From Candidatus Rokuibacteriota bacterium (GTDB lineage Bacteria; Methylomirabilota; Methylomirabilia; Rokubacteriales; CSP1-6), in NCBI GenBank assembly GCA_016193045.1, contig JACPSW010000130.1:1-64000 (forward strand): a stretch of DNA of 64,000 nucleotides, in the 5' to 3' direction. The notes beneath the pieces were generated by a model, which saw nothing but the letters and a program-made list of their open reading frames with translations, was not told the DNA's origin and made no database searches. How positions within the stretch are numbered: the stretch's first letter is position 1; every line of letters begins with the position of its first letter. The translations under genes and the position numbers were made by a program. Shown in pieces: positions 1,651-63,017 of the stretch.

Positions 1651-3327
1651 TCAGCCGGCCGGCTGCGAGTCCACCGCCCGCTGGCTCTCGTGCAATTCCC
1701 GCCGGATCACCGCGGTGGGCCACAGCCCCTCCGGACGGAGCTGCATCATGAGCACGAGGGCGGCCCCGTAGACGAGGAAACGGAATTCGGCAAACTCGCG
1801 TAGCAGCTCCGGAAGCCCTACCAGAAACAGCGCGCCCACGACCACCCCGGGCATGCTGCCCATGCCGCCGACGATGATCAGGGCCAGCACGTTGATGGAG
1901 ATGAGCAACTGGAAGCTATGGGGGAACACCGAGCCGACCATGACGGCGAAGATGGCCCCGCTGAGGCCGGCGCAGGCCGCTCCCAGGCCGTAGGCGAGGA
2001 GCTTGACGTTCACCAGGTTGATTCCCATGGCCTCCGCCACGTCCTCGTCCTCGCGCAGGGCCATCCAGGCCCGCCCGAGGCGGGAGTCGCGCAGTCGCAT
2101 GGCGACAAACGCCACCAGGACGCTCGCCGCCAGCGTCAGGTAGAAGAGCTGCTCGGGCCCCCGGAGCTCGAACCCGAAGAGCGCCGGTTTGGGGATCCCC
2201 AGCACCCCCTGGGAGCCGCCGAGCCACGGCCGCAGGAAGTCCGACAGCACCAGCAGCCGGACGATCTCGCCGAACCCGAGGGTGGCGATCGCGAGGTAGT
2301 CGCCGCGGATCCTGAGCACCGGCACCCCCAGGATCACCCCGGCGATGAGCGAGACGGCGACGGCGATGGGGACCGCCGTCCAAAAGGAGAACTGGGCGAT
2401 CGCCAGTCCCCCGGCGGCGGTGAGCAGGCCAACGGTGTAGGCGCCGATGGCGAAGAAGGCCACGAAGCCGAGGTCCAGCAGGCCAGCGAAGCCCACCTCG
2501 AGGTTCAGCCCCAGGCCCATGAGCGTGTAGAGGCCCACCAGGACCAGCACCATCGAGAGGAATGGCCCCGCCCCGAGGGGCAGGAGGAGCAGCAGCACGG
2601 TCCCGAGGCCCAGGGCGAGCAGCCGGAGGGCGGTGCGTGGCGAGGCGGGGAGCTGGAGGACCCACTCGCGCACCGTGGCGCCCTGGCCGGCCCACACGGC
2701 GCTCCCGCCCCCGACCACCAGGAACGCAATCAGGGCGCCGGAGACGGAAAGCCCCTGGTCCGCGAAGAGCGCGTCCCGGACGGCCATGCCGGCGGCGGTG
2801 GCGCGCAGCACGGGGTCCAGCAGGTCCTGGAACAGGCCGAGGGCCAGGACCGAACCCAGCCCGAGGAGGAGCGGGCGGCGCGCACGTCCGGTCAGGAGCG
2901 GCCCGGCTGCCCCCAGCGCGCCGGCGGCGGCCCCTGCCGCCACGGGCAGGTACGCGCCGCCCGCGCCCTGGTCCAGGGAGAGCAGGGCGAAGAGCGTCGG
3001 CGAGGCGCTCACGAACACGCGGCGGAGGTTCAGGAGTCTCCCCGCGATGACGAGCCCCGCCACCGCCGCCCCGGCCGCCGTTCCTGCCAGGGCGCCCCGC
3101 AACAGGGCGAGCGTGGCGTGGCCGTCCGGCCGAAGCCGGGCGGCTTGGTAGCCGGACGCCAGGCCGGTCAGGAAGAGCAGGGTAAGGCCCAGGGAGACGA
3201 CGCCGGCGATGATCTGGCGCCCCGCGAAGGCCTCTACCATGCCCACGAGCGCGAGGAATACGGCCACCGCGCCCCAGACGAGGCCCGTCCGCGCCGCGCC
3301 GCCCCACAAGCGACGGGCTCCCGTCAC
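1651..3327 (-). CDS. livM: LivM-type permease with long extra N-terminal membrane region
   Basis: Inner-membrane permease that pairs with LivH. The C-terminal half (from about residue 255, MVLVLVGLYTLMGLGLNLEVG) is a standard LivM domain: VGFAGLLDLGFVAFFAIGAYT, then the cytoplasmic coupling region AWMALREDEDVAEAMGINLVNVKLLAYG, ending in LRPEGLWP. The first roughly 250 residues are Ala/Gly/Leu-rich with about six hydrophobic segments and no motif I recognise. At 558 residues it is longer than usual LivM proteins (about 300-430). The extension is in frame with no obvious internal start, so it looks genuine. It lies 21 bases after livH in the same operon. Confidence 0.9.
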   Translation of the reverse strand: MTGARRLWGGAARTGLVWGAVAVFLALVGMVEAFAGRQIIAGVVSLGLTLLFLTGLASGYQAARLRPDGHATLALLRGALAGTAAGAAVAGLVIAGRLLNLRRVFVSASPTLFALLSLDQGAGGAYLPVAAGAAAGALGAAGPLLTGRARRPLLLGLGSVLALGLFQDLLDPVLRATAAGMAVRDALFADQGLSVSGALIAFLVVGGGSAVWAGQGATVREWVLQLPASPRTALRLLALGLGTVLLLLLPLGAGPFLSMVLVLVGLYTLMGLGLNLEVGFAGLLDLGFVAFFAIGAYTVGLLTAAGGLAIAQFSFWTAVPIAVAVSLIAGVILGVPVLRIRGDYLAIATLGFGEIVRLLVLSDFLRPWLGGSQGVLGIPKPALFGFELRGPEQLFYLTLAASVLVAFVAMRLRDSRLGRAWMALREDEDVAEAMGINLVNVKLLAYGLGAACAGLSGAIFAVMVGSVFPHSFQLLISINVLALIIVGGMGSMPGVVVGALFLVGLPELLREFAEFRFLVYGAALVLMMQLRPEGLWPTAVIRRELHESQRAVDSQPAG

Positions 3328-3348
3328 CGCCGCGCCCTCCGAACGGGG

Positions 3349-4410
<1,062 letters not shown>

Positions 4411-7893: not shown

Positions 7894-9228
7894 TCACAGC
7901 GTGACCTCGAGCTTCGGCAGGGGGAAACCGCCCGCGCGGAACACGGGGTCTTCGAGCAGCCGCAGGTGGAACGGGATCGTGGTCTTGACCCCTTCGACGA
8001 TGGTCTCGGAGAGCGCGCGCCGCATCCGGCCGATAGCCTCCGGGCGGTCGGTGCCGTGGACGATGATCTTGGCGATGAGGGAGTCGTAGACGGACGGGAC
8101 GGTGTAGCCGGGCATGAGGTGGCTGTCCACCCGGACTCCCGGGCCTCCGGGGGGAACCCACGCGGTGATCCGTCCTGGATTCGGCGTGAAGGTGTCGGGA
8201 TCTTCGGCGTTGATCCGGCACTCCATGGCGTGCCCGACGGGGCGGATATCGCTCTGGCTCCAGCGAAGAGGTTCTCCCGTGGCGATCAGGATCTGCTCGC
8301 GGACGAGGTCGATCCCCGTCAGCATCTCCGTGACCGGATGCTCGACCTGGATGCGGGTGTTCATCTCGATGAAGTAGAAGTTTCCCTCCCGGTCCACGAG
8401 AAACTCCATGGTGCCGGCGCTGGTGTAGTTCACGGCCTGCGCCACCGCCAGCGCGGCCTTGTGGAGGCCCGTCCGGGTCGCGGGCGGGATGGCCGACGCG
8501 GGGGACTCCTCGAGGAGCTTCTGGTACCGGCGCTGGACCGAGCAGTCGCGCTCGCCCGCATGGATGCGCGTGCCGGCCCGGTCTCCCAGGACCTGAACCT
8601 CGATGTGGCGGGCCTCCTCCACGAATTTTTCCAGATAGACGTCGGAGGAGCCGAAGGCGGCAGCGGCCTCCGCTTGGCACGTGTGGAAGGCCTGCGCCAG
8701 GGCCTCGCGCTCGCGCACAATGCGCATGCCGCGCCCGCCTCCGCCAGCGGCCGCTTTGAGCATCACCGGAAACCCGACGGCCTCGGCCGCGCTGTGGGCC
8801 TGGTCCTCGTCCTTGAGCGGGGCCTCGCTTCCGGGGATGATCGGGACCCCGGCCTGACGGGCGATCTCCCGCGCCTGGGCTTTGTCGCCCATGAGGCGGA
8901 TGGCTTCCGGGGACGGGCCGATGAACGTGATCCCGCAAGCCCGGCAGATATCCGCGAACGCGGCGTTCTCGGAAAGGAAGCCGTAGCCGGGGTGGATCGC
9001 TTCGCTGTCGGTAACGGCCGCCGCGGAGATGATGCTCGGGATGTTCAGATAGCTCGACCGGGCATCGTCGGGGCCGACGCAGATGGACTCATCGGCCAGG
9101 CGGACGGGCAGGGAGTTGGCATCCACCTTCGAATGAGCGATGACGGCGCGGATCCCCATCTCGCGGCAGGCCCGCAGGATCCGGAGGGCGATCTCACCGC
9201 GGTTCGCGATCAGTATCTTGTTAAACAC
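7894..9228 (-). CDS. accC: acetyl-CoA carboxylase, biotin carboxylase subunit
   Basis: AccC carboxylates biotin on AccB with ATP and bicarbonate, the first step of malonyl-CoA synthesis. From the GTG at 9228 the protein is 444 residues and begins VFNKILIANRGEIALRILRA, the universal AccC start; a TTG start 39 bases upstream would add repeat-encoded residues and is rejected. The ATP-grasp region KAAAGGGGRGMRIV, the EKFVEEARHIEVQ block, and FIEMNTRIQVEHPVTE with its catalytic Glu and Arg are intact. Length is normal. Usually accB and accC are adjacent; here a 464-residue peptidase-like gene lies between them. accA and accD are not in the window. Confidence 0.95.
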   Translation of the reverse strand: MFNKILIANRGEIALRILRACREMGIRAVIAHSKVDANSLPVRLADESICVGPDDARSSYLNIPSIISAAAVTDSEAIHPGYGFLSENAAFADICRACGITFIGPSPEAIRLMGDKAQAREIARQAGVPIIPGSEAPLKDEDQAHSAAEAVGFPVMLKAAAGGGGRGMRIVREREALAQAFHTCQAEAAAAFGSSDVYLEKFVEEARHIEVQVLGDRAGTRIHAGERDCSVQRRYQKLLEESPASAIPPATRTGLHKAALAVAQAVNYTSAGTMEFLVDREGNFYFIEMNTRIQVEHPVTEMLTGIDLVREQILIATGEPLRWSQSDIRPVGHAMECRINAEDPDTFTPNPGRITAWVPPGGPGVRVDSHLMPGYTVPSVYDSLIAKIIVHGTDRPEAIGRMRRALSETIVEGVKTTIPFHLRLLEDPVFRAGGFPLPKLEVTL

Positions 9229-54427: not shown

Positions 54428-56995
54428 CTAGTGGGCGGGGACGGACCGGACCAGCATTGCCGCGAACTTCTTCAGGGTCTCCACCGGGTCTTTGCCTCCC
54501 AGGTGGATCCGGATCACACGGCGGCCCTTGTTCCGGAGGGCTTGGAGGTCGCCCAGGGCCTGGGCGTTCTTCAGGACGGCGAACGAATAGGGCTCGTGAG
54601 CGTCGTCAGTCGTCAGCTGGATGAAGAGGCCGTTGGCCGCGCCGCCCTTGTGGAGCTGGCCGGTGGAGTGCAGGTACCGGGGGCCCATCCCCACCGTCAC
54701 GGCGAGCTTGGTTTTGTCGCGCATCATGCGCCGCAGCTCCTGGAGCGCTTCGGGGATCTCCGGCTTGGACGGCAGGTAGGCCTGGAAGGCCAGGTAATCT
54801 CCCGGCTTCGCCAGCGCCATGTGGGCGCCGAGGCCCTCCGCCACGGTCAGAGGCTTTGTCCCAGCGCCCGTCATCAGCGCGATCCCGTCTTCCTCGCGGT
54901 CCACGGCCCACTCAGGCAGGCGGCGGCTGGTGCGATAGGCCGTGAGGAGCTTGGCGGTGATGTCCTTCGACTCCTGCACGTTGGGCTCGTCGAAGGGGTT
55001 GACCCCGAGGAGCGCGCCGATCGTGGCCGTCGCGATCTCCCAGCGATAGAACTCCGTGCCGATGTCCAGGGGGTCCCGGAGCCTGATCTTGATCACCGGG
55101 TGACCGGCCTCCTCGAGCGCGGCCAGACTGGCCTCCAGCGCGACGGCCTCGTCGGCCAGCGTCATGGCCACGAAGACGCGGTCCGGGCCATACACCGCCG
55201 GCGCGCCCAGCGGCTCGCCGTCGATTGGGATGAGGCCGCGCCCGTTCTTCCCGAGGCTCTCGGCGAGGAGCTGCTCCACCCAGACGCCGAAGGAGGCGAT
55301 GCCCGGGGAAAAGACAAGCGTGACCTTGTCGCGCCCTCCCTTGGCCAGCGCCGCGAGCTTCGCCCCGAGGACGACGCCGGGATTGTCCCTGATCGGGACC
55401 GAATCGCCCGCTTCCTCCACGGCGGCGACCGCCCGGTCCAGGATTCCCGCCACATCTATGCCCACCAGGGCCGCCGGCAGGAGGCCGAAGTACGAGAGCG
55501 CGGAATACCGGCCCCCGATCGTGGGCGGATTGAGGAAGACCTTGCGAAAGCCCTGGCTCTTGGCCAGTTTCTCGAGCAGCGTCCCGCCGTCGGTGATCCC
55601 GACGAACTGGAGCCCCGGCTTTCCGCGCGAGCCCTTCTCGATCTGTTCCCGGAAGAAGGCGTAGAAGGCCATCGTCTCGGCGGTCAGGCCGGACTTCGAC
55701 GAAACCACGATGAGCGTGCGCGGCAGGTTGATCTTGCCCAGCGCCGCCTTGACGGCCGACGGATCCGTCGAATCCAGGACGACGAGGTCCGGGAACCCCA
55801 TCTTCGGGCCAAACGTGAGCGATAGAACCTCGGGGCAGAGGACGGCCCCGCCCATTCCGAGCAGGAGGATATGGGTGTAGTGCGAGCGGCGGACCTCGTC
55901 GGCGAACTCCTTCAGGTCGTCGGCATGCTGCCGCATCAGGGTCGGTGAGGTCAGCCAGCCGAGCCGGCTGCGAATCAGCGCCTGCTGGGCGCCGTCGTCC
56001 GTCCAGAGGGACGCGTCCTTGATCCAGAGGCTCTCGATGAACCCGCGGTCCTCGAGCGTCCGGAGCGCCTCGGAGGCCATGCGGGCGAACTGCTCCGCGG
56101 GTGCGGGAGGCGGCGGCGGTGGCGGAGGCGGCAGGGGCGGTGGGGGCGGAGCCGCAGGAGGGGCCTTGGGGGCGGGCCGGGCGGGCGCTGCCGGGCGTTC
56201 GGGCGCGACTCGGGCGGCCGGCCGCGTGGGGGGCTCCTCGGCGACGCCGGCTTCACGATCGAACTCCTGGATGAACTTCGACATCTCGTCCGCCATCGAG
56301 GGCTCCAGCGAGACGGGCTCGGGCTCCCGTGGAACAGCCTGGCGCGCGGCGGGCCGCGCGGGGGCGGAGGGGCGCTCGGGCTCTCGGCCGGCCGGCCGAA
56401 CGGGGGCCGCAGGGCGCGGCGGCCGCTCCTCGACGACGGGGGCGGGGCGGGGGGCCGCCCTAGGCCTGGGCGGCGGCTCCTCTTCCCGGGGGGGCGCCGG
56501 TCGAGGGGGGGGAGGCTCGCGGCGGACGGTCTTCTCGCCGGCCCCGGCGGCGATCCCCTGCTCGAGCTCCGTGATCTTCTGGATGCGGCGCACATGCCGC
56601 TCTTCGCCGGAGAACTCGGTCGCGAGCCACTCGCGCGTGATCTCCATCGCGGTGTCCGCGTCCAGCACGCGGGCCCCCAGGCAGAGGACGTTGGCGTCGT
56701 CGTCGGCGCGGCTCTGGCGGGCCGTGAAGAGGTCGGTGCAGAGCGCGGCGCGGACGCCCCGGACCTTGTTGGCGGCGATGGCCCCGCCCACCCCGCTCCC
56801 GCACACGAGGATTCCCAGATCCACGAACCCGTTCCGCACGGCGTTGCCCACCGCGCGGGCGAAGTCCGGGTAGTCCACGGGATCGGACGAGAAGGTGCCC
56901 AGGTCCAGGACGTGGTGGCCGTCCTGCTCCAGGACCGAGATCATCGGCTCCTTGAGCGGGTGGCCTGCGTGATCGCAGCCGAAGGCCAGGCGCAT
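54428..56995 (-). CDS. RpiB-glucose-6-phosphate isomerase fusion
   Basis: 855 residues. Residues 1 to about 160 are a ribose-5-phosphate isomerase B domain (FGCDHAGHPLKEPM; catalytic Cys65 in LVCGSGVGGAIAANKVRG; SRADDDANVLCLGARVL). About 160-300 is a Pro/Arg/Ala-rich linker with a poly-proline run near 282-297. About 305-855 is a glucose-6-phosphate isomerase domain like the Pgi half of transaldolase-Pgi fusions (ILLLGMGGAVLCPEVL, VVSSKSGLTAETMAFYAFF, GGRYSALSYFGLLPAAL, GTEFYRWEIATATIGALLGVNPFDEPNVQESK). At position 98 an Asp replaces the His (E. coli H99) thought to open the sugar ring. The frame is continuous with no internal start needed. It heads the gnd-zwf-pgl operon. Confidence 0.9.
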   Translation of the reverse strand: MRLAFGCDHAGHPLKEPMISVLEQDGHHVLDLGTFSSDPVDYPDFARAVGNAVRNGFVDLGILVCGSGVGGAIAANKVRGVRAALCTDLFTARQSRADDDANVLCLGARVLDADTAMEITREWLATEFSGEERHVRRIQKITELEQGIAAGAGEKTVRREPPPPRPAPPREEEPPPRPRAAPRPAPVVEERPPRPAAPVRPAGREPERPSAPARPAARQAVPREPEPVSLEPSMADEMSKFIQEFDREAGVAEEPPTRPAARVAPERPAAPARPAPKAPPAAPPPPPLPPPPPPPPPAPAEQFARMASEALRTLEDRGFIESLWIKDASLWTDDGAQQALIRSRLGWLTSPTLMRQHADDLKEFADEVRRSHYTHILLLGMGGAVLCPEVLSLTFGPKMGFPDLVVLDSTDPSAVKAALGKINLPRTLIVVSSKSGLTAETMAFYAFFREQIEKGSRGKPGLQFVGITDGGTLLEKLAKSQGFRKVFLNPPTIGGRYSALSYFGLLPAALVGIDVAGILDRAVAAVEEAGDSVPIRDNPGVVLGAKLAALAKGGRDKVTLVFSPGIASFGVWVEQLLAESLGKNGRGLIPIDGEPLGAPAVYGPDRVFVAMTLADEAVALEASLAALEEAGHPVIKIRLRDPLDIGTEFYRWEIATATIGALLGVNPFDEPNVQESKDITAKLLTAYRTSRRLPEWAVDREEDGIALMTGAGTKPLTVAEGLGAHMALAKPGDYLAFQAYLPSKPEIPEALQELRRMMRDKTKLAVTVGMGPRYLHSTGQLHKGGAANGLFIQLTTDDAHEPYSFAVLKNAQALGDLQALRNKGRRVIRIHLGGKDPVETLKKFAAMLVRSVPAH

Positions 56996-58693: not shown

Positions 58694-59899
58694 TCAGGCG
58701 ACGACCCCGAGGTCGCGCAGCCAACGGATGGCCATCGCGTCGTAGCCGGCGGCGCGCAGCACCTCGTCCGTGTGCTCGCCCAGGTCCGGCGCCCGGGTCG
58801 GCGGGACCTTCGTCTGGCCCTCCACCTGGATCGGGCTCATGACGGTCCGCAGGCCCGGGATGCCCGCGCCCTCGAGGGGCGCGACCGTGCCGGTCGCCGC
58901 CATCTGGCGGTCGTCGCGAAGATCCCCGAGCCGGGCGACCGCCTCGAAGGGGATGTCAGACGCTTCCAGGGTGGCCTCCCACTGACCCCAGTCTCTCTCT
59001 CCGAACACCCCGTCGAGGATCTTGACGAGCGCGGGGGAGTTGGCGTGGCGCGCCGCCATCGTGGCGAAGCGGGAGTCGGAGATGAGGTCGGCCCGGCCGA
59101 TCGCGCGCGCGAAGCGTTCCCAATCCTTGTCCTCGGTGAGCATCGTCAGGACGAGCCAGCGCCCGTCGCGGCACTGGTAGAGGTTGACGAGGGCGTTGAG
59201 GGCCTGCTCGCGCGGCGGCCGCTCGACGAAAGTGGCCCCGCACAGCAGGGCTTGGATGAGCACGCTGTTGGCCCAGGCGCCGTTGCCCATCAGCGACGTC
59301 GAGACCTTCGCGCCCCGGCCGGTGCGCTCGCGCTGGTAGAGCCCGAGCGCGATGGCGCCGAAGAGGGCCACGGCCGTGGGGTGGTCGCCCATGCCGGGCA
59401 TGGAGCTGGTGGGTTGCGCGCCTGCGGCCCGCACGAGATCCATCAGGCCCGAGCGCGCCCACCAGGCGTTGACGTCGAAGCCGGGCTTGGCCGCCCCCTC
59501 GCCCACCTCGCCGTAGGCCGTGAGCAGGGCGTAGATCAGCCGCGGGTTCACGGCGGACAGGTCCTCCCAAGTGAGCCCCAGGCGGGCGAGCAGGGCCAGG
59601 GGGAAGTTCGTCAAGAAGACATCAGTCTTGGCCGCGAGCCGGAGCAGGACGTCGCGCCCCTCCGGTCTCGTCACGTCCAGCGCCAGGCTCTTCTTGTTGC
59701 GGGAGTCGAGCAGCCAGGAATAGTTGTGCTCGCTCACGGGCATCCCCGGCAGCCCGCCCAGGCCGCGATAGGGATCGCCTGTGCCGGGCGGCTCCACCTT
59801 GATCACCTCGGCGCCGAAGTCGGACATGATCGTCGCCGCCGCCGGGCCGGCGATCCAGCTCCCGACCTCCAGGACCTTGACGCCGTCGAGAACGCCCAT
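58694..59899 (-). CDS. class III (CaiB/BaiF) CoA-transferase
   Basis: Transfers CoA between carboxylic acids. 401 residues from ATG 59899. N-terminal GVKVLEVGSWIAGPAAATIMSDFGAEVIKVEPPGTGDPYRG is the family signature; DSRNKKSLALDVTRPEGRDVLLRL and FLTNF follow, and the region GFDVNAWWARSGLMDL holds the Asp expected to carry the acyl-CoA intermediate. Substrate unknown. Its promoter (TTGACC-N17-TAATCT) is divergent from that of the selenoprotein operon, so the two may share regulation. Confidence 0.93.
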   Translation of the reverse strand: MGVLDGVKVLEVGSWIAGPAAATIMSDFGAEVIKVEPPGTGDPYRGLGGLPGMPVSEHNYSWLLDSRNKKSLALDVTRPEGRDVLLRLAAKTDVFLTNFPLALLARLGLTWEDLSAVNPRLIYALLTAYGEVGEGAAKPGFDVNAWWARSGLMDLVRAAGAQPTSSMPGMGDHPTAVALFGAIALGLYQRERTGRGAKVSTSLMGNGAWANSVLIQALLCGATFVERPPREQALNALVNLYQCRDGRWLVLTMLTEDKDWERFARAIGRADLISDSRFATMAARHANSPALVKILDGVFGERDWGQWEATLEASDIPFEAVARLGDLRDDRQMAATGTVAPLEGAGIPGLRTVMSPIQVEGQTKVPPTRAPDLGEHTDEVLRAAGYDAMAIRWLRDLGVVA

Positions 59900-59910
59900 G
59901 GAGTGCGCCA

Positions 59911-59939
59911 AGATTAGCCCGTGGGAGGGGAGGGGTCAA
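59911..59939 (-). promoter_or_regulatory. promoter of the CoA-transferase gene
   Basis: Minus strand TTGACC (59939-59934), 17-base spacer, TAATCT (59916-59911), ending 11 bases before the ATG at 59899. Confidence 0.55.
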
Positions 59940-59998: not shown

Positions 59999-60535
59999 AT
60001 GCCAGGTTGCATTCGCGTGCTGAGCCCGGTGGGGGAGGTGAGGCATCACGTCCTCACGGCGCCGATGCTCCCCTCGGACCTCCGCGGGAAAACCGTCGGC
60101 TTCCTTGACAACACGAAGGCCAACTTCGACAGGCTCGTCACCGACATGGGGGGGCTCCTCCGGGAGCGCTTCGGCGTCAAGGCGATCGTCCACCGGACGA
60201 AGGCGAACGCCGCGACCCCTGCGGCCCCGGAGATCCTCGAAGAGCTGGCGAAGGCGTGCGACCTGGTCTTCGCGGGCTCGGGAGACTGAGGGTCCTGCAC
60301 GTCGTGGAGTCTCCACGACGCGGTGGAGCTGGCCAAGGGCGGCACTCCCGCCGGGCTGATCGCGACCGCCACCTTCCAGCCGCTGGCCGTGAGCGAGCTC
60401 CAGGCCCTCGGCATGGGCGGCCTGCCGCTGCTCGTCATCGATCATCCGCTCGGGGGTGAGAAGCCCGAGGGCGTGCTTCGCCGCGCCCACCAGGCGGTGG
60501 AGGAGCTGGCCGCTCTCCTCGGCGTCGCGCGATGA
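59999..60535 (+). CDS. UGSC family selenoprotein with in-frame TGA (Sec97)
   Basis: One reading frame of 178 residues is interrupted only by TGA at 60287-60289. Upstream: LPSDLRGKTVGFLDNTKANFDRLVTDMGGLLRERFGVKAIVHRTKAN and ELAKACDLVFAGSGD; after the TGA: GSCTSWSLHDAVELAKGGTPAGLIATATFQPLA and VIDHPLGGEKPEGVLRRAH. The TGA thus forms U-G-S-C (Sec97, Cys100), the motif that names the UGSC family of (seleno)proteins. A perfect 9-base stem with a GTC loop lies 11 bases past the TGA, as a bacterial SECIS. The fold looks Rossmann-like with the redox motif at the end of a beta-strand. Its TGA stop overlaps the next ATG (ATGA). The reaction is unknown; a thiol/selenol redox or reductase role is inferred. 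Confidence 0.88.
60300..60320 (+). promoter_or_regulatory. SECIS-like hairpin for Sec97
   Basis: CGTCGTGGA-GTC-TCCACGACG: perfect 9-base stem, 3-base loop beginning with G, loop starting 20 nt after the TGA. Distance and the loop GTC(T) are like E. coli fdhF SECIS, whose apical loop is GGTCT. It lies inside the coding frame, as bacterial SECIS elements do. Confidence 0.75.
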
Positions 60536-61590
60536 CGCTTCGCTCCGAGGTTCTCGAGCTCCCCGACTCTCCCGACGCGGTCTACCGGGCGTTCTGCGAG
60601 CGGGAGTGGTGCGACGGGTTGCCGATCATCCCTCCCACCGCCCAGCGGGTGGAGGCGATGCTCGCGACGGTCACCGGGGACCCCGAGGAATCTCTCGGAC
60701 CGATCCCCCCGCTCTGGCGCCAGGCCACGCTCGAGAAGCTCGCGGTGAACGCCGTCATGGCCGGCTGCCTGCCGGAGCACTTCCCGGTGGTCGTGGCGGC
60801 GGTGGAGGTGATGCTGGATCCCGCCTTCAACCTCTACGGGGTGCAGGCCACCACCCACCCGGTGGCCCCCCTCCTGATCCTGAACGGCCCGTACGCGCGG
60901 ACGATCGGGATGCACGGCGGGTCGGGGTGCTTCGGCCCGGGGTTCAGGGCGAACGCGACCATCGGCAGGGCGATCCGGCTCATCTTGCTGAACGTCGGCG
61001 GCGGCTGGCCCGGCCGCCACGACATGGCGACCCACGGGAGCCCGGCCAAGTTCTCCTACGCCATCGCCGAGAACGAGGCGGCGAATCCGTGGCCGCCGCT
61101 CCACGTGGAGCTGGGCTTCGCGCCCGACCAGTCGGTCGTCACCGTCTTCGGGGGCGAGGGGCCTCACAACGTCAACGATCACGTCTCCACGAACGCCTCC
61201 GGCATCCTGAACACGGTGTCCCACACGGCGGCGACGCTGGGTTCCAACGTCAAGTGGTACCTTTCCCAGAGCCAGTTGCTGTTGGTTCTGGGGCCGGAAC
61301 ACGCGGCCACGGTCGCCGCCGACAACTTCTCCAAGGATGACGTCAAGGCGTTCGTCTTCGAGCACGCGCGCCTGCCCCTCGGCACGCTCAAGCTGGGCGG
61401 GATGTGGGGGATCCAGGACTGGCCGCGCTGGATGATGGCGGTGACGGACGACCGAGCGCTCCTGCCCGTCGTGGCTTCCCCCAGCGAGATCTTCGTCATC
61501 GTGGCGGGAGGCGCGGGGAAGCACTCGGCCGTCGTCCCGAACTGCACCTTCAGCCGCGCCGTAAGCCGACCGTTGACCCGTCTCCCATGA
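60532..61590 (+). CDS. conserved partner protein of the UGSC selenoprotein
   Basis: 352 residues, soluble, no signal peptide. The N-terminal block EREWCDGLPIIPPTAQRVEAML and the Gly-rich block HGGSGCFGPGFRANATIGRAIRLILLNVGGGWPGRHDMATHGSPAKFSYAIAENE look strongly conserved; a later FGGEGPHNVNDH segment and a C-terminal SEIFVIVAGGAGKHSAVV also suggest nucleotide or metal/cofactor contacts. Cysteines at WCDG and GSGCFG could work with the selenol of the upstream protein. I do not recognise a characterised family. Both its start (ATGA with the selenoprotein stop) and its stop (ATGA with the next gene) overlap, which argues for a stoichiometric complex. Confidence 0.85.
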   Translation: MTLRSEVLELPDSPDAVYRAFCEREWCDGLPIIPPTAQRVEAMLATVTGDPEESLGPIPPLWRQATLEKLAVNAVMAGCLPEHFPVVVAAVEVMLDPAFNLYGVQATTHPVAPLLILNGPYARTIGMHGGSGCFGPGFRANATIGRAIRLILLNVGGGWPGRHDMATHGSPAKFSYAIAENEAANPWPPLHVELGFAPDQSVVTVFGGEGPHNVNDHVSTNASGILNTVSHTAATLGSNVKWYLSQSQLLLVLGPEHAATVAADNFSKDDVKAFVFEHARLPLGTLKLGGMWGIQDWPRWMMAVTDDRALLPVVASPSEIFVIVAGGAGKHSAVVPNCTFSRAVSRPLTRLP

Positions 61591-63017
61591 ACCCGCTCGT
61601 CACCCGCATCGCCTGCGGGGACCGCCAGATCAAGGTCACTCTTCCGGAGCGGACGCGGGTCATCCGGGCTCCCGACCCGCTGCCGCCGCTTCCCGATGTC
61701 GAGAAGAGCCTGCGCGACGCCCTGGCGGTTCCGCGCGGCATGGAGCCCCTGCCGAGACTCGTGGGCCCCAAATCGCGGGTCACGATCGCCTTCGACGATC
61801 CGGCGAAGCCGCTCTATCCGATCAAGGGGGGCGATTTCAGGGAGCTGGCGATTCCCATCATCCTGGAGGAACTGGAGCGGGCGGGGGTGGAGCGGCACCG
61901 GGTTCGCCTCCTCTGCGCCAACGCGCTGCACCGCCAGTGGACGCGCAGCGAGCTCACCCGGATTCTCGGCGCGAAGCTCGTCCGGGCCTTCGGGACCTCG
62001 CGGCTCCGGTGCCACGACGCCGAGGACCCGGAGGGTCTGGTCCCCCTCGGCGAGACGGCGCGGGGGATGGAGGTCGAGGTGAACCGGGCGGTGGTGGACT
62101 CGGACCTGGTGATCTACGTGGGAGTCCCGGCCACCCCATTCAATGGCGGATGGAAATCCATCGCCGTCGGGCTCTCGTCCTGGCGGTCCATCCGCCACCA
62201 TCACCGCCCGTTCCCCCAGGCCCGGGGAATCTCCACCCAGGACCACGAGCGGTCGAGCTTCCACAAGCTGATGCGGGAGATGGGCGAGGTGATCGAGACC
62301 GCTCTCGCCCCCAGGGGGACGCGAATTCTCCAGGTCGAGGGCATCGTGAACTCGGCAATCCCCCCCCAAGTCTGCGGGGTCTTCGCGGGCTCCATCGAGG
62401 ACGCCCACAAGGCTTCGCTCGGGCTCCTGGACCGGCAGTTCGCGCTGCCGGTGACGGGGCAGGCCGACGTGGTGGTGTACGGCCTCCCCAACAACGACTA
62501 CTACTCGCGCTTCTCGGTCTTCAATCCGATCCTCCTTCGCAACCTCGCGCTCTCCTACGCCGCGGGGAGCTACCAGGGGATGCCGCTCGCCCGCGCCGGG
62601 GGGATCGCGATCTTCGCCAACCCCTGCCACCGCCAGTGGAGCGCCCAGAATCACCCCTCGTACGTCGAGCTGTTCGACAAGATCCTGCCGCGGATGCGCG
62701 ATCCCTTCGAGGTCTGGGACAAATACGCCGAGGAGTTCGCCCACCGGCCGGAGTACGTCCACCGCTACCGCACCGCCTACGCCTTTCACGGGGCTCACCC
62801 GCTGATCCTCTATGGCCAGGGCGCGTACCAGCTGAAGCACCTCTCGCGGGTCTTCCTGGCGCGGTCGGAGGATCCCGAGGTCGCGCGGCGGCTCGGCTTC
62901 GAGCCGTTCCCCACGGTGGAAGAGGCGGTCGCCGAGGCCGAGCGGACTCTCGGGCAGGACTGCTCGATCACCTACCAGGTCGTCCCGCCCTTCTTCTGGC
63001 CGCGCGTCTCCGCCTAG
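61587..63017 (+). CDS. LarA/DUF2088-like protein
   Basis: 476 residues from ATG 61587, overlapping the previous stop. It resembles the lactate racemase catalytic (DUF2088) family, whose characterised member LarA uses a nickel-pincer nucleotide. Family-like elements: RVTIAFDDPAKPLYPIKG (in place of the D-x-TRP motif), LLCANALHRQWTRSEL (like the GTHR-x-M-T-x-x-E segment), FGTSRLRCHDAEDPEGLVPLG, and HHHRPFPQARGISTQD with clustered His. Some LarA catalytic positions cannot be confirmed by eye. No larB, larC or larE is in the window. It may act on a hydroxy acid or be a non-racemase relative serving the selenoprotein pathway. Confidence 0.8.
   Translation: MNPLVTRIACGDRQIKVTLPERTRVIRAPDPLPPLPDVEKSLRDALAVPRGMEPLPRLVGPKSRVTIAFDDPAKPLYPIKGGDFRELAIPIILEELERAGVERHRVRLLCANALHRQWTRSELTRILGAKLVRAFGTSRLRCHDAEDPEGLVPLGETARGMEVEVNRAVVDSDLVIYVGVPATPFNGGWKSIAVGLSSWRSIRHHHRPFPQARGISTQDHERSSFHKLMREMGEVIETALAPRGTRILQVEGIVNSAIPPQVCGVFAGSIEDAHKASLGLLDRQFALPVTGQADVVVYGLPNNDYYSRFSVFNPILLRNLALSYAAGSYQGMPLARAGGIAIFANPCHRQWSAQNHPSYVELFDKILPRMRDPFEVWDKYAEEFAHRPEYVHRYRTAYAFHGAHPLILYGQGAYQLKHLSRVFLARSEDPEVARRLGFEPFPTVEEAVAEAERTLGQDCSITYQVVPPFFWPRVSA

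Follow-up and report, generated by a model that had tools for sequence, protein, structure and literature searches.

A UGSC-family selenoprotein and its constant partner in Rokubacteria as a candidate thioredoxin-dependent reductase

The window analyzed here, a stretch of 64,000 nucleotides from a Candidatus Rokuibacteriota contig, carries on its forward strand a UGSC-family gene (59999..60535) interrupted by an in-frame TGA, which raises the questions of whether this codon is read as selenocysteine (Sec) and what reaction the resulting protein might perform. The frame begins with ATG at 59999 and ends with TGA at 60533-60535; its sole internal in-frame TGA lies at 60287-60289 on the same strand. 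A first-pass annotation of this DNA had described two same-frame segments split by that codon only, and sequence and translation confirmed this. Read-through yields a 178-aa product containing AGSGD-U-GSCTSW, in which the TGA specifies Sec97 of the motif D96-U97-G-S-C100.

The annotation had also placed the product in an existing (seleno)protein family, correctly: the family is represented in Pfam (UGSC, PF24696) and has been catalogued since 2008, when it was listed as the 'UGSC-containing protein' of the GOS selenoproteome (PMC2398784). PF24696 matches the window protein with 158.1 bits (E=3e-46, cut-off 25) over residues 7-175, corresponding to model positions 2-171/172 and thus to the full family length. 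The NCBIfam model NF041046 gives 123.8 bits when C is written for Sec, below its cut-off of 125, and 125.1 bits for a paralogue in the same genome (L145); since the window copy falls 1.2 bits under the naming threshold, the NCBI pipeline might leave it unnamed. Statements about this organism's genome derive from targeted searches of its 3.86-Mb metagenome assembly.

Reading of the in-frame TGA

The Sec reading is backed on every axis tested, which supports the view that this gene truly specifies a selenocysteine protein. True Sec insertion, as the first-pass annotation had proposed, draws support from homologues beyond the TGA, Sec machinery, SECIS covariation and purifying selection. Profile and tRNA searches of the genome for the sel genes, suggested earlier as a check, located all four components: one contig carries SelA (515 bits), SelB (375 bits) and tRNA-Sec (anticodon TCA, 70.9 bits), and a different one carries SelD (334 bits). 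The selD gene (G000:C181:2176-3117, L016) has an in-frame TGA of its own, in the motif SCAG-U.

Relatives continue past the TGA position with Sec or Cys, again in line with a check proposed at the outset. The TGA is kept in 10 other Rokubacteria/Methylomirabilota loci from independent assemblies and several sites, and most other relatives, among them haloarchaea, actinobacteria and proteobacteria, carry a Cys codon (TGC or TGT); in all relatives listed the codon is TGA, TGC or TGT. A quick tree places the number of Sec-Cys exchanges at about six, and positions 97, 98 and 100 are unvarying in 90/90 aligned sequences, a set collected partly by the motif. Sequence comparison indicates purifying selection on the codons 3' of the TGA: over 75 codons of this part, the window gene and its relative L021 differ by 16 synonymous and 0 nonsynonymous changes, and 10/10 relatives compared show higher identity 3' of the TGA than 5' of it.

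The hairpin noted by the first-pass annotation, a perfect 9-bp stem with a GTC loop 11 nt after the TGA, was verified exactly. It occupies 60300..60320 on the forward strand, with stem arms CGTCGTGGA (60300-60308) and TCCACGACG (60312-60320) and an apical loop GUC (60309-60311); the distance from TGA to loop, 19 nt, is within the known range, and folding of 60284-60345 recovers the structure. Its energy z-score is weak (-1.26, with 22/200 shuffles as good), and because the energy of a single hairpin is not significant alone, this measure was replaced by covariation and by controls with Cys homologues. In an ungapped comparison of 32 distinct TGA genes, the nine stem pairs hold in 97.2% of cells, whereas the same stem is paired in 63.1% of cells in 41 Cys homologues. 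A GTN (GUN) loop is present in 32/32 TGA genes, and the Cys genes have scattered loop sequences. Compensatory change was seen in 24 cells with both sides altered (25 distinct sequences). The covariation score of 0.247 was reached by 0/500 shuffles and slid registers scored far lower; the shuffle tests are inflated by related sequences, a weakness that affects neither the slid registers nor the comparison with Cys genes. In addition, the mean synonymous-shuffle z-score was -1.82 for 47 TGA genes versus -0.55 for 43 Cys genes. An Rfam search returned no SECIS model match for the hairpin. From these comparisons the hairpin is a SECIS element, the proof being comparative and not energetic.

That the TGA is instead a true stop codon, or the product of a pseudogene mutation or of faulty sequencing, with the two segments not forming one protein, would fit the unexceptional hairpin energy in a single genome and the two short ORFs that a standard caller reports. 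Set against this are the retention of TGA in independent assemblies from several sites, the presence of seven TGA paralogues in the same genome, purifying selection past the codon, SECIS covariation and the complete Sec machinery, and we regard this explanation as highly improbable. Gene callers do split such genes, as had been predicted: in Paracoccus CP038202 the UGSC gene appears as two 'hypothetical proteins'.

Both Sec-type and Cys-type genes, and mobile copies, were encountered elsewhere. For example, a Myxococcales MAG (L046) has a Cys-type and a Sec-type UGSC gene on a single contig, separated by ~5 kb (3074-3478 and 8504-8902). A TGA-split UGSC gene with a GTG-loop hairpin lies at 7947-8500 of plasmid p2-T1 of Acidovorax sp. 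T1 (L161), an IncP conjugative plasmid, near IS1071.

Partner gene, catabolic neighbors and thioredoxin linkage

The UGSC stop overlaps, as ATGA, the start of a gene for a 352-aa protein (60532..61590, + strand), hereafter the partner. In a species-wide genome collection a partner homologue adjoins or is fused to UGSC in 52/52 related loci, from archaea to Rokubacteria, and one lies close by all seven UGSC copies of this organism's genome. The two form one open frame in 27 sequences, two of them paralogues from this genome, with fusion ORFs of ~530-600 aa (L029, L030, L050-L072 and the paralogues L144 and L145), and in other loci the partner lies 5' instead of 3' of UGSC. By this co-occurrence the partner is obligate for UGSC. 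It is without a Pfam, NCBIfam or PADLOC match, and PADLOC detected no defense families. Because the TGA splits the UGSC gene and the partner is without a family model, these genes are hidden from standard annotation.

The AlphaFold model of the partner has a pLDDT of 91.6. Its best fold match, class I fumarate hydratase (E 2e-3, TM 0.30, rmsd 12), is too weak to name the protein. Iron-sulfur hydratases would need a set of three Cys; the partner is without such a conserved set, with Cys79 kept in 54/59 sequences. Zhang and Gladyshev (2008) described UGSC fused to an unnamed 'Unknown_1' domain (PMC2398784), and this domain is probably the partner protein.

Genes beyond the partner are less constant. 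The stop of the partner gene is overlapped by a LarA-like gene (61587..63017, + strand) of the nickel-pincer nucleotide hydroxyacid racemase/isomerase family, which matches Lar_N (E=3.5e-38) and scores 418 bits against LarAH14/15/16 (cut-off 740). A LarA-like gene also follows the partner in L021 and L023, the latter copy being truncated by a contig end. Since it is the third gene of the apparent operon in the closest relatives only, we rejected LarA as a general part of the enzyme. Divergent from UGSC is a class III CoA-transferase gene (58697..59911, - strand; CoA_transf_3, E=4.2e-96), homologues of which lie at 12 of 52 further UGSC loci; the family is a common one and the evidence therefore weak, and we counted it as neighborhood and not as enzyme. 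Further upstream (54428-56995, - strand), an 855-aa frame combines, by eye, an RpiB-like N-terminus and a glucose-6-phosphate-isomerase-like part joined by a proline-rich linker, and homologous frames lie near UGSC in eight close relatives.

UGSC genes are numerous in this phylum, being found in 72/95 genomes searched with a maximum of 12 copies per genome, and every listed match contains exactly one TGA. The seven Sec-UGSC copies of this organism adjoin differing transporters and catabolic genes. ORFs of this GC-rich DNA were filtered by codon position for the clustering of UGSC neighborhoods, and the neighbors of UGSC overall include CoA-transferases, acyl-CoA dehydrogenases, enoyl-CoA hydratases, amidohydrolases and TRAP, TTT and peptide transporters. 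Such neighbors suggest that organic acids are taken up and degraded as CoA derivatives, and a single chemistry acting on several substrates would fit the seven copies with their differing transporters and CoA enzymes.

In several unrelated lineages, UGSC and its partner are flanked by thioredoxin (trxA) and/or thioredoxin reductase (trxB) genes. The gene order is trxB-trxA-partner-UGSC in Arthrobacter and partner-UGSC-trxB in Roseovarius, and trxA and/or trxB are also neighbors in L049, L050, L051, L052/L053 and L054. In Paracoccus ferrooxidans, a TGA-bearing UGSC gene and its partner have trxB, which overlaps selA, ~9 kb upstream and selB ~3 kb downstream, with sulfur-transfer genes in between. 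An informal estimate, from 1-2 such genes per several-thousand-gene genome, puts the number of trxA/trxB adjacencies expected by chance among these loci at well under one. No such linkage was seen at the loci examined in this organism's genome, where one thioredoxin reductase homologue sits on a different contig, its frame containing an internal TAG.

The P. ferrooxidans genes are carried by plasmid pFER4 (L165, 5553-22154), with trxB-selA, DsrE, TusA and cysteine desulfurase genes, UGSC, partner and selB; the UGSC gene there is TGA-split and annotated as two hypothetical proteins. ARAGORN detected no tRNA-Sec in the 16-kb portion of the Paracoccus island represented by L163. Small NifU-like proteins adjoin some UGSC-partner fusions. 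An Arthrobacter UGSC protein (L162, 7965-8780) appears to be fused C-terminally to a likely NifU-like CxxC domain; other lineages encode this domain as a small gene of its own ahead of the UGSC-partner fusion.

Relationship to GrdB and predicted fold

Profile comparison relates UGSC to the Sec-bearing C-terminal domain of GrdB, the selenoprotein B of glycine/sarcosine/betaine reductase, and we treat UGSC as a distant relative and not as a member of the GrdB/PrdB superfamily. A profile of 90 UGSC domains matched one of 12 Rokubacterial GrdB C-terminal halves with a probability of 94.3% (p 1e-7, score 53.2), with Sec aligned on Sec and conserved segments running on to the HPLG-like region; the GrdB alignment is shallow, with an effective number of ~2. 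Masking of the Sec column left 89.7% (score 45.7), the best of 59 column shuffles scored 21.4 and the reversed profile 22.4, and full-length GrdB gave 91.3%. Similarity to a PrdB-like profile was weak (18%), so that the link to proline reductase runs via GrdB. Neither PF07355 nor TIGR01918 matched the window protein, even with the threshold relaxed to E 10. The Pfam GRDB model (PF07355, 347 positions) stops right before Sec (L073, L078), leaving the catalytic C-terminal domain invisible, which may explain why standard searches miss the UGSC-GrdB link.

The resemblance does not extend to the partner, which showed no similarity to the GrdB profile (0.07%) and is unrelated to GrdE (0.11%), and the window operon has no pyruvoyl-forming gene of the GrdE/PrdA type. 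Substrate activation would thus need a mechanism other than the pyruvoyl one. Rokubacterial genomes (L073, L078, L083-L101) contain several GrdB selenoproteins of full length next to GrdE-like genes, and UGTS or UGTG replaces UGTC in some of them. This organism's genome also encodes a PrdB/GrdB-C-like selenoprotein with the motif PV-U-PVCHQS (G000:C41:34871-35245 and downstream; L076, L157:3725-4630), directly 3' of what resembles a phosphonate-type ABC transporter.

In an AlphaFold prediction of a fusion protein, the UGSC part (mean pLDDT 85.1) consists of alternating strands and helices, with the Sec position modeled at the head of helix 97-112, after the third (parallel) beta strand. Its best PDB fold matches are lumazine synthase, GH3 and PurE, and thioredoxin is absent from the top 50. 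As modeled, the UGSC fold is Rossmann-like and not thioredoxin-like, which contradicts the thioredoxin-like fold suggested when the family was first listed (PMC2398784). Sequence searches of the PDB with UGSC, the fusion profile and GrdB gave no meaningful match.

Proposed reaction and alternatives

On balance we favor the view that UGSC and its partner constitute a thioredoxin-dependent two-component reductase with a GrdB-type Sec domain, for which small organic compounds are candidate substrates. In the proposed sequence of events, the SECIS that follows the UGA would allow SelB and tRNA-Sec to insert Sec97, and UGSC and the 352-aa protein would act as two subunits of one reductase, as their natural fusion elsewhere suggests. 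The partner, the presumed binding or activating subunit, would hold a small organic substrate, in which the selenolate of Sec97 would attack, as nucleophile, a polarized carbon or heteroatom. Resolution of the selenium adduct by Cys100 would yield a selenenyl-sulfide, which thioredoxin and thioredoxin reductase would reduce again; in this organism, too, they are the putative electron donor. This chemistry is modeled by analogy on GrdB, on PrdB and on a proposal that a GrdB-like selenoprotein pair cleaves the C-F bond of monofluoroacetate (PMC13188914, PMC10838667).

Two other readings bear on this proposal. The thought that Sec97 or Cys97 and the partner carry out an isomerization, lyase or hydratase step without redox chemistry, the likeness to GrdB reflecting fold ancestry only, is consistent with the weak resemblance of the partner to class I fumarate hydratases (E 2e-3, TM 0.30), with the similarity of the UGSC fold to the non-redox enzymes PurE and lumazine synthase and with the LarA-like isomerase gene downstream. 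We consider it unlikely given that Cys100 is unvarying beside Sec97 (90/90), which suggests redox chemistry, that thioredoxin system genes are linked in several lineages, and that the partner keeps only Cys79 (54/59) and not the three-Cys set of iron-sulfur hydratases. The UxxC motif and the nearby trxA and trxB genes in some lineages could also be expected of a thiol-disulfide or peroxide oxidoreductase of the thioredoxin fold, but the Rossmann-like alpha/beta model with Sec after beta 3, the lack of thioredoxin among the top 50 PDB folds, the profile match to GrdB, and an obligate partner and catabolic context unlike those of general thiol redox proteins make such an enzyme improbable.

A broader form of the reductase reading can be put forward only tentatively, namely that UGSC and its partner represent an undescribed, widespread class of thioredoxin-dependent reductases in which a GrdB-type Sec/Cys domain works without pyruvoyl chemistry and which would reductively cleave carbon-heteroatom bonds of environmental organic compounds, with substrate-specific copies in Rokubacteria and plasmid-borne copies accompanied by Sec-insertion genes in Paracoccus. 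We found no mention, in the literature searched, of the obligate partner, the expansion to many copies in Rokubacteria, the relation to GrdB or the linkage to thioredoxin and its reductase. What appears new is thus the partner at all 52 loci, the seven copies in one genome, the relation to the GrdB domain with its Rossmann-like model and the thioredoxin linkage; the partner, the paralogues, the GrdB relation and the thioredoxin context also go beyond the first-pass annotation. This orphan family becomes open to test as an enzyme now that it has a constant partner, a mechanistic relative and a donor system. If the reductase reading is true, these copies would make soil and groundwater bacteria a reservoir of enzymes that cleave bonds by means of selenium, and haloarchaea and actinobacteria would have the cysteine counterparts.

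Comparison with known systems places these features as follows. Like the SECIS of E. coli fdhF, the window hairpin lies just 3' of the UGA and has a small loop containing G and U, but the fdhF element carries a bulged U, whereas the window type has a GUN loop closed by A-U and is without the bulge. D-proline reductase PrdB, stated to be homologous to GrdB (PMC13188914), and PrdB-like UPxC proteins (TIGR04483) resemble UGSC as single Sec-domain subunits with UxxC, and differ in that the UGSC locus is without a PrdA-like proprotein. In GrdB (PF07355, TIGR01918), the U-G-x-C/S motif after a strand, an I-x-HPLG-like segment and the following helix align with UGSC; UGSC differs in having neither the ~240-residue N-terminal part of GrdB nor a GrdE (pyruvoyl) partner at the locus. 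Finally, the window copy shares motif, size and Sec/Cys alternation with the catalogued UGSC family (PF24696, NF041046, PMC2398784).
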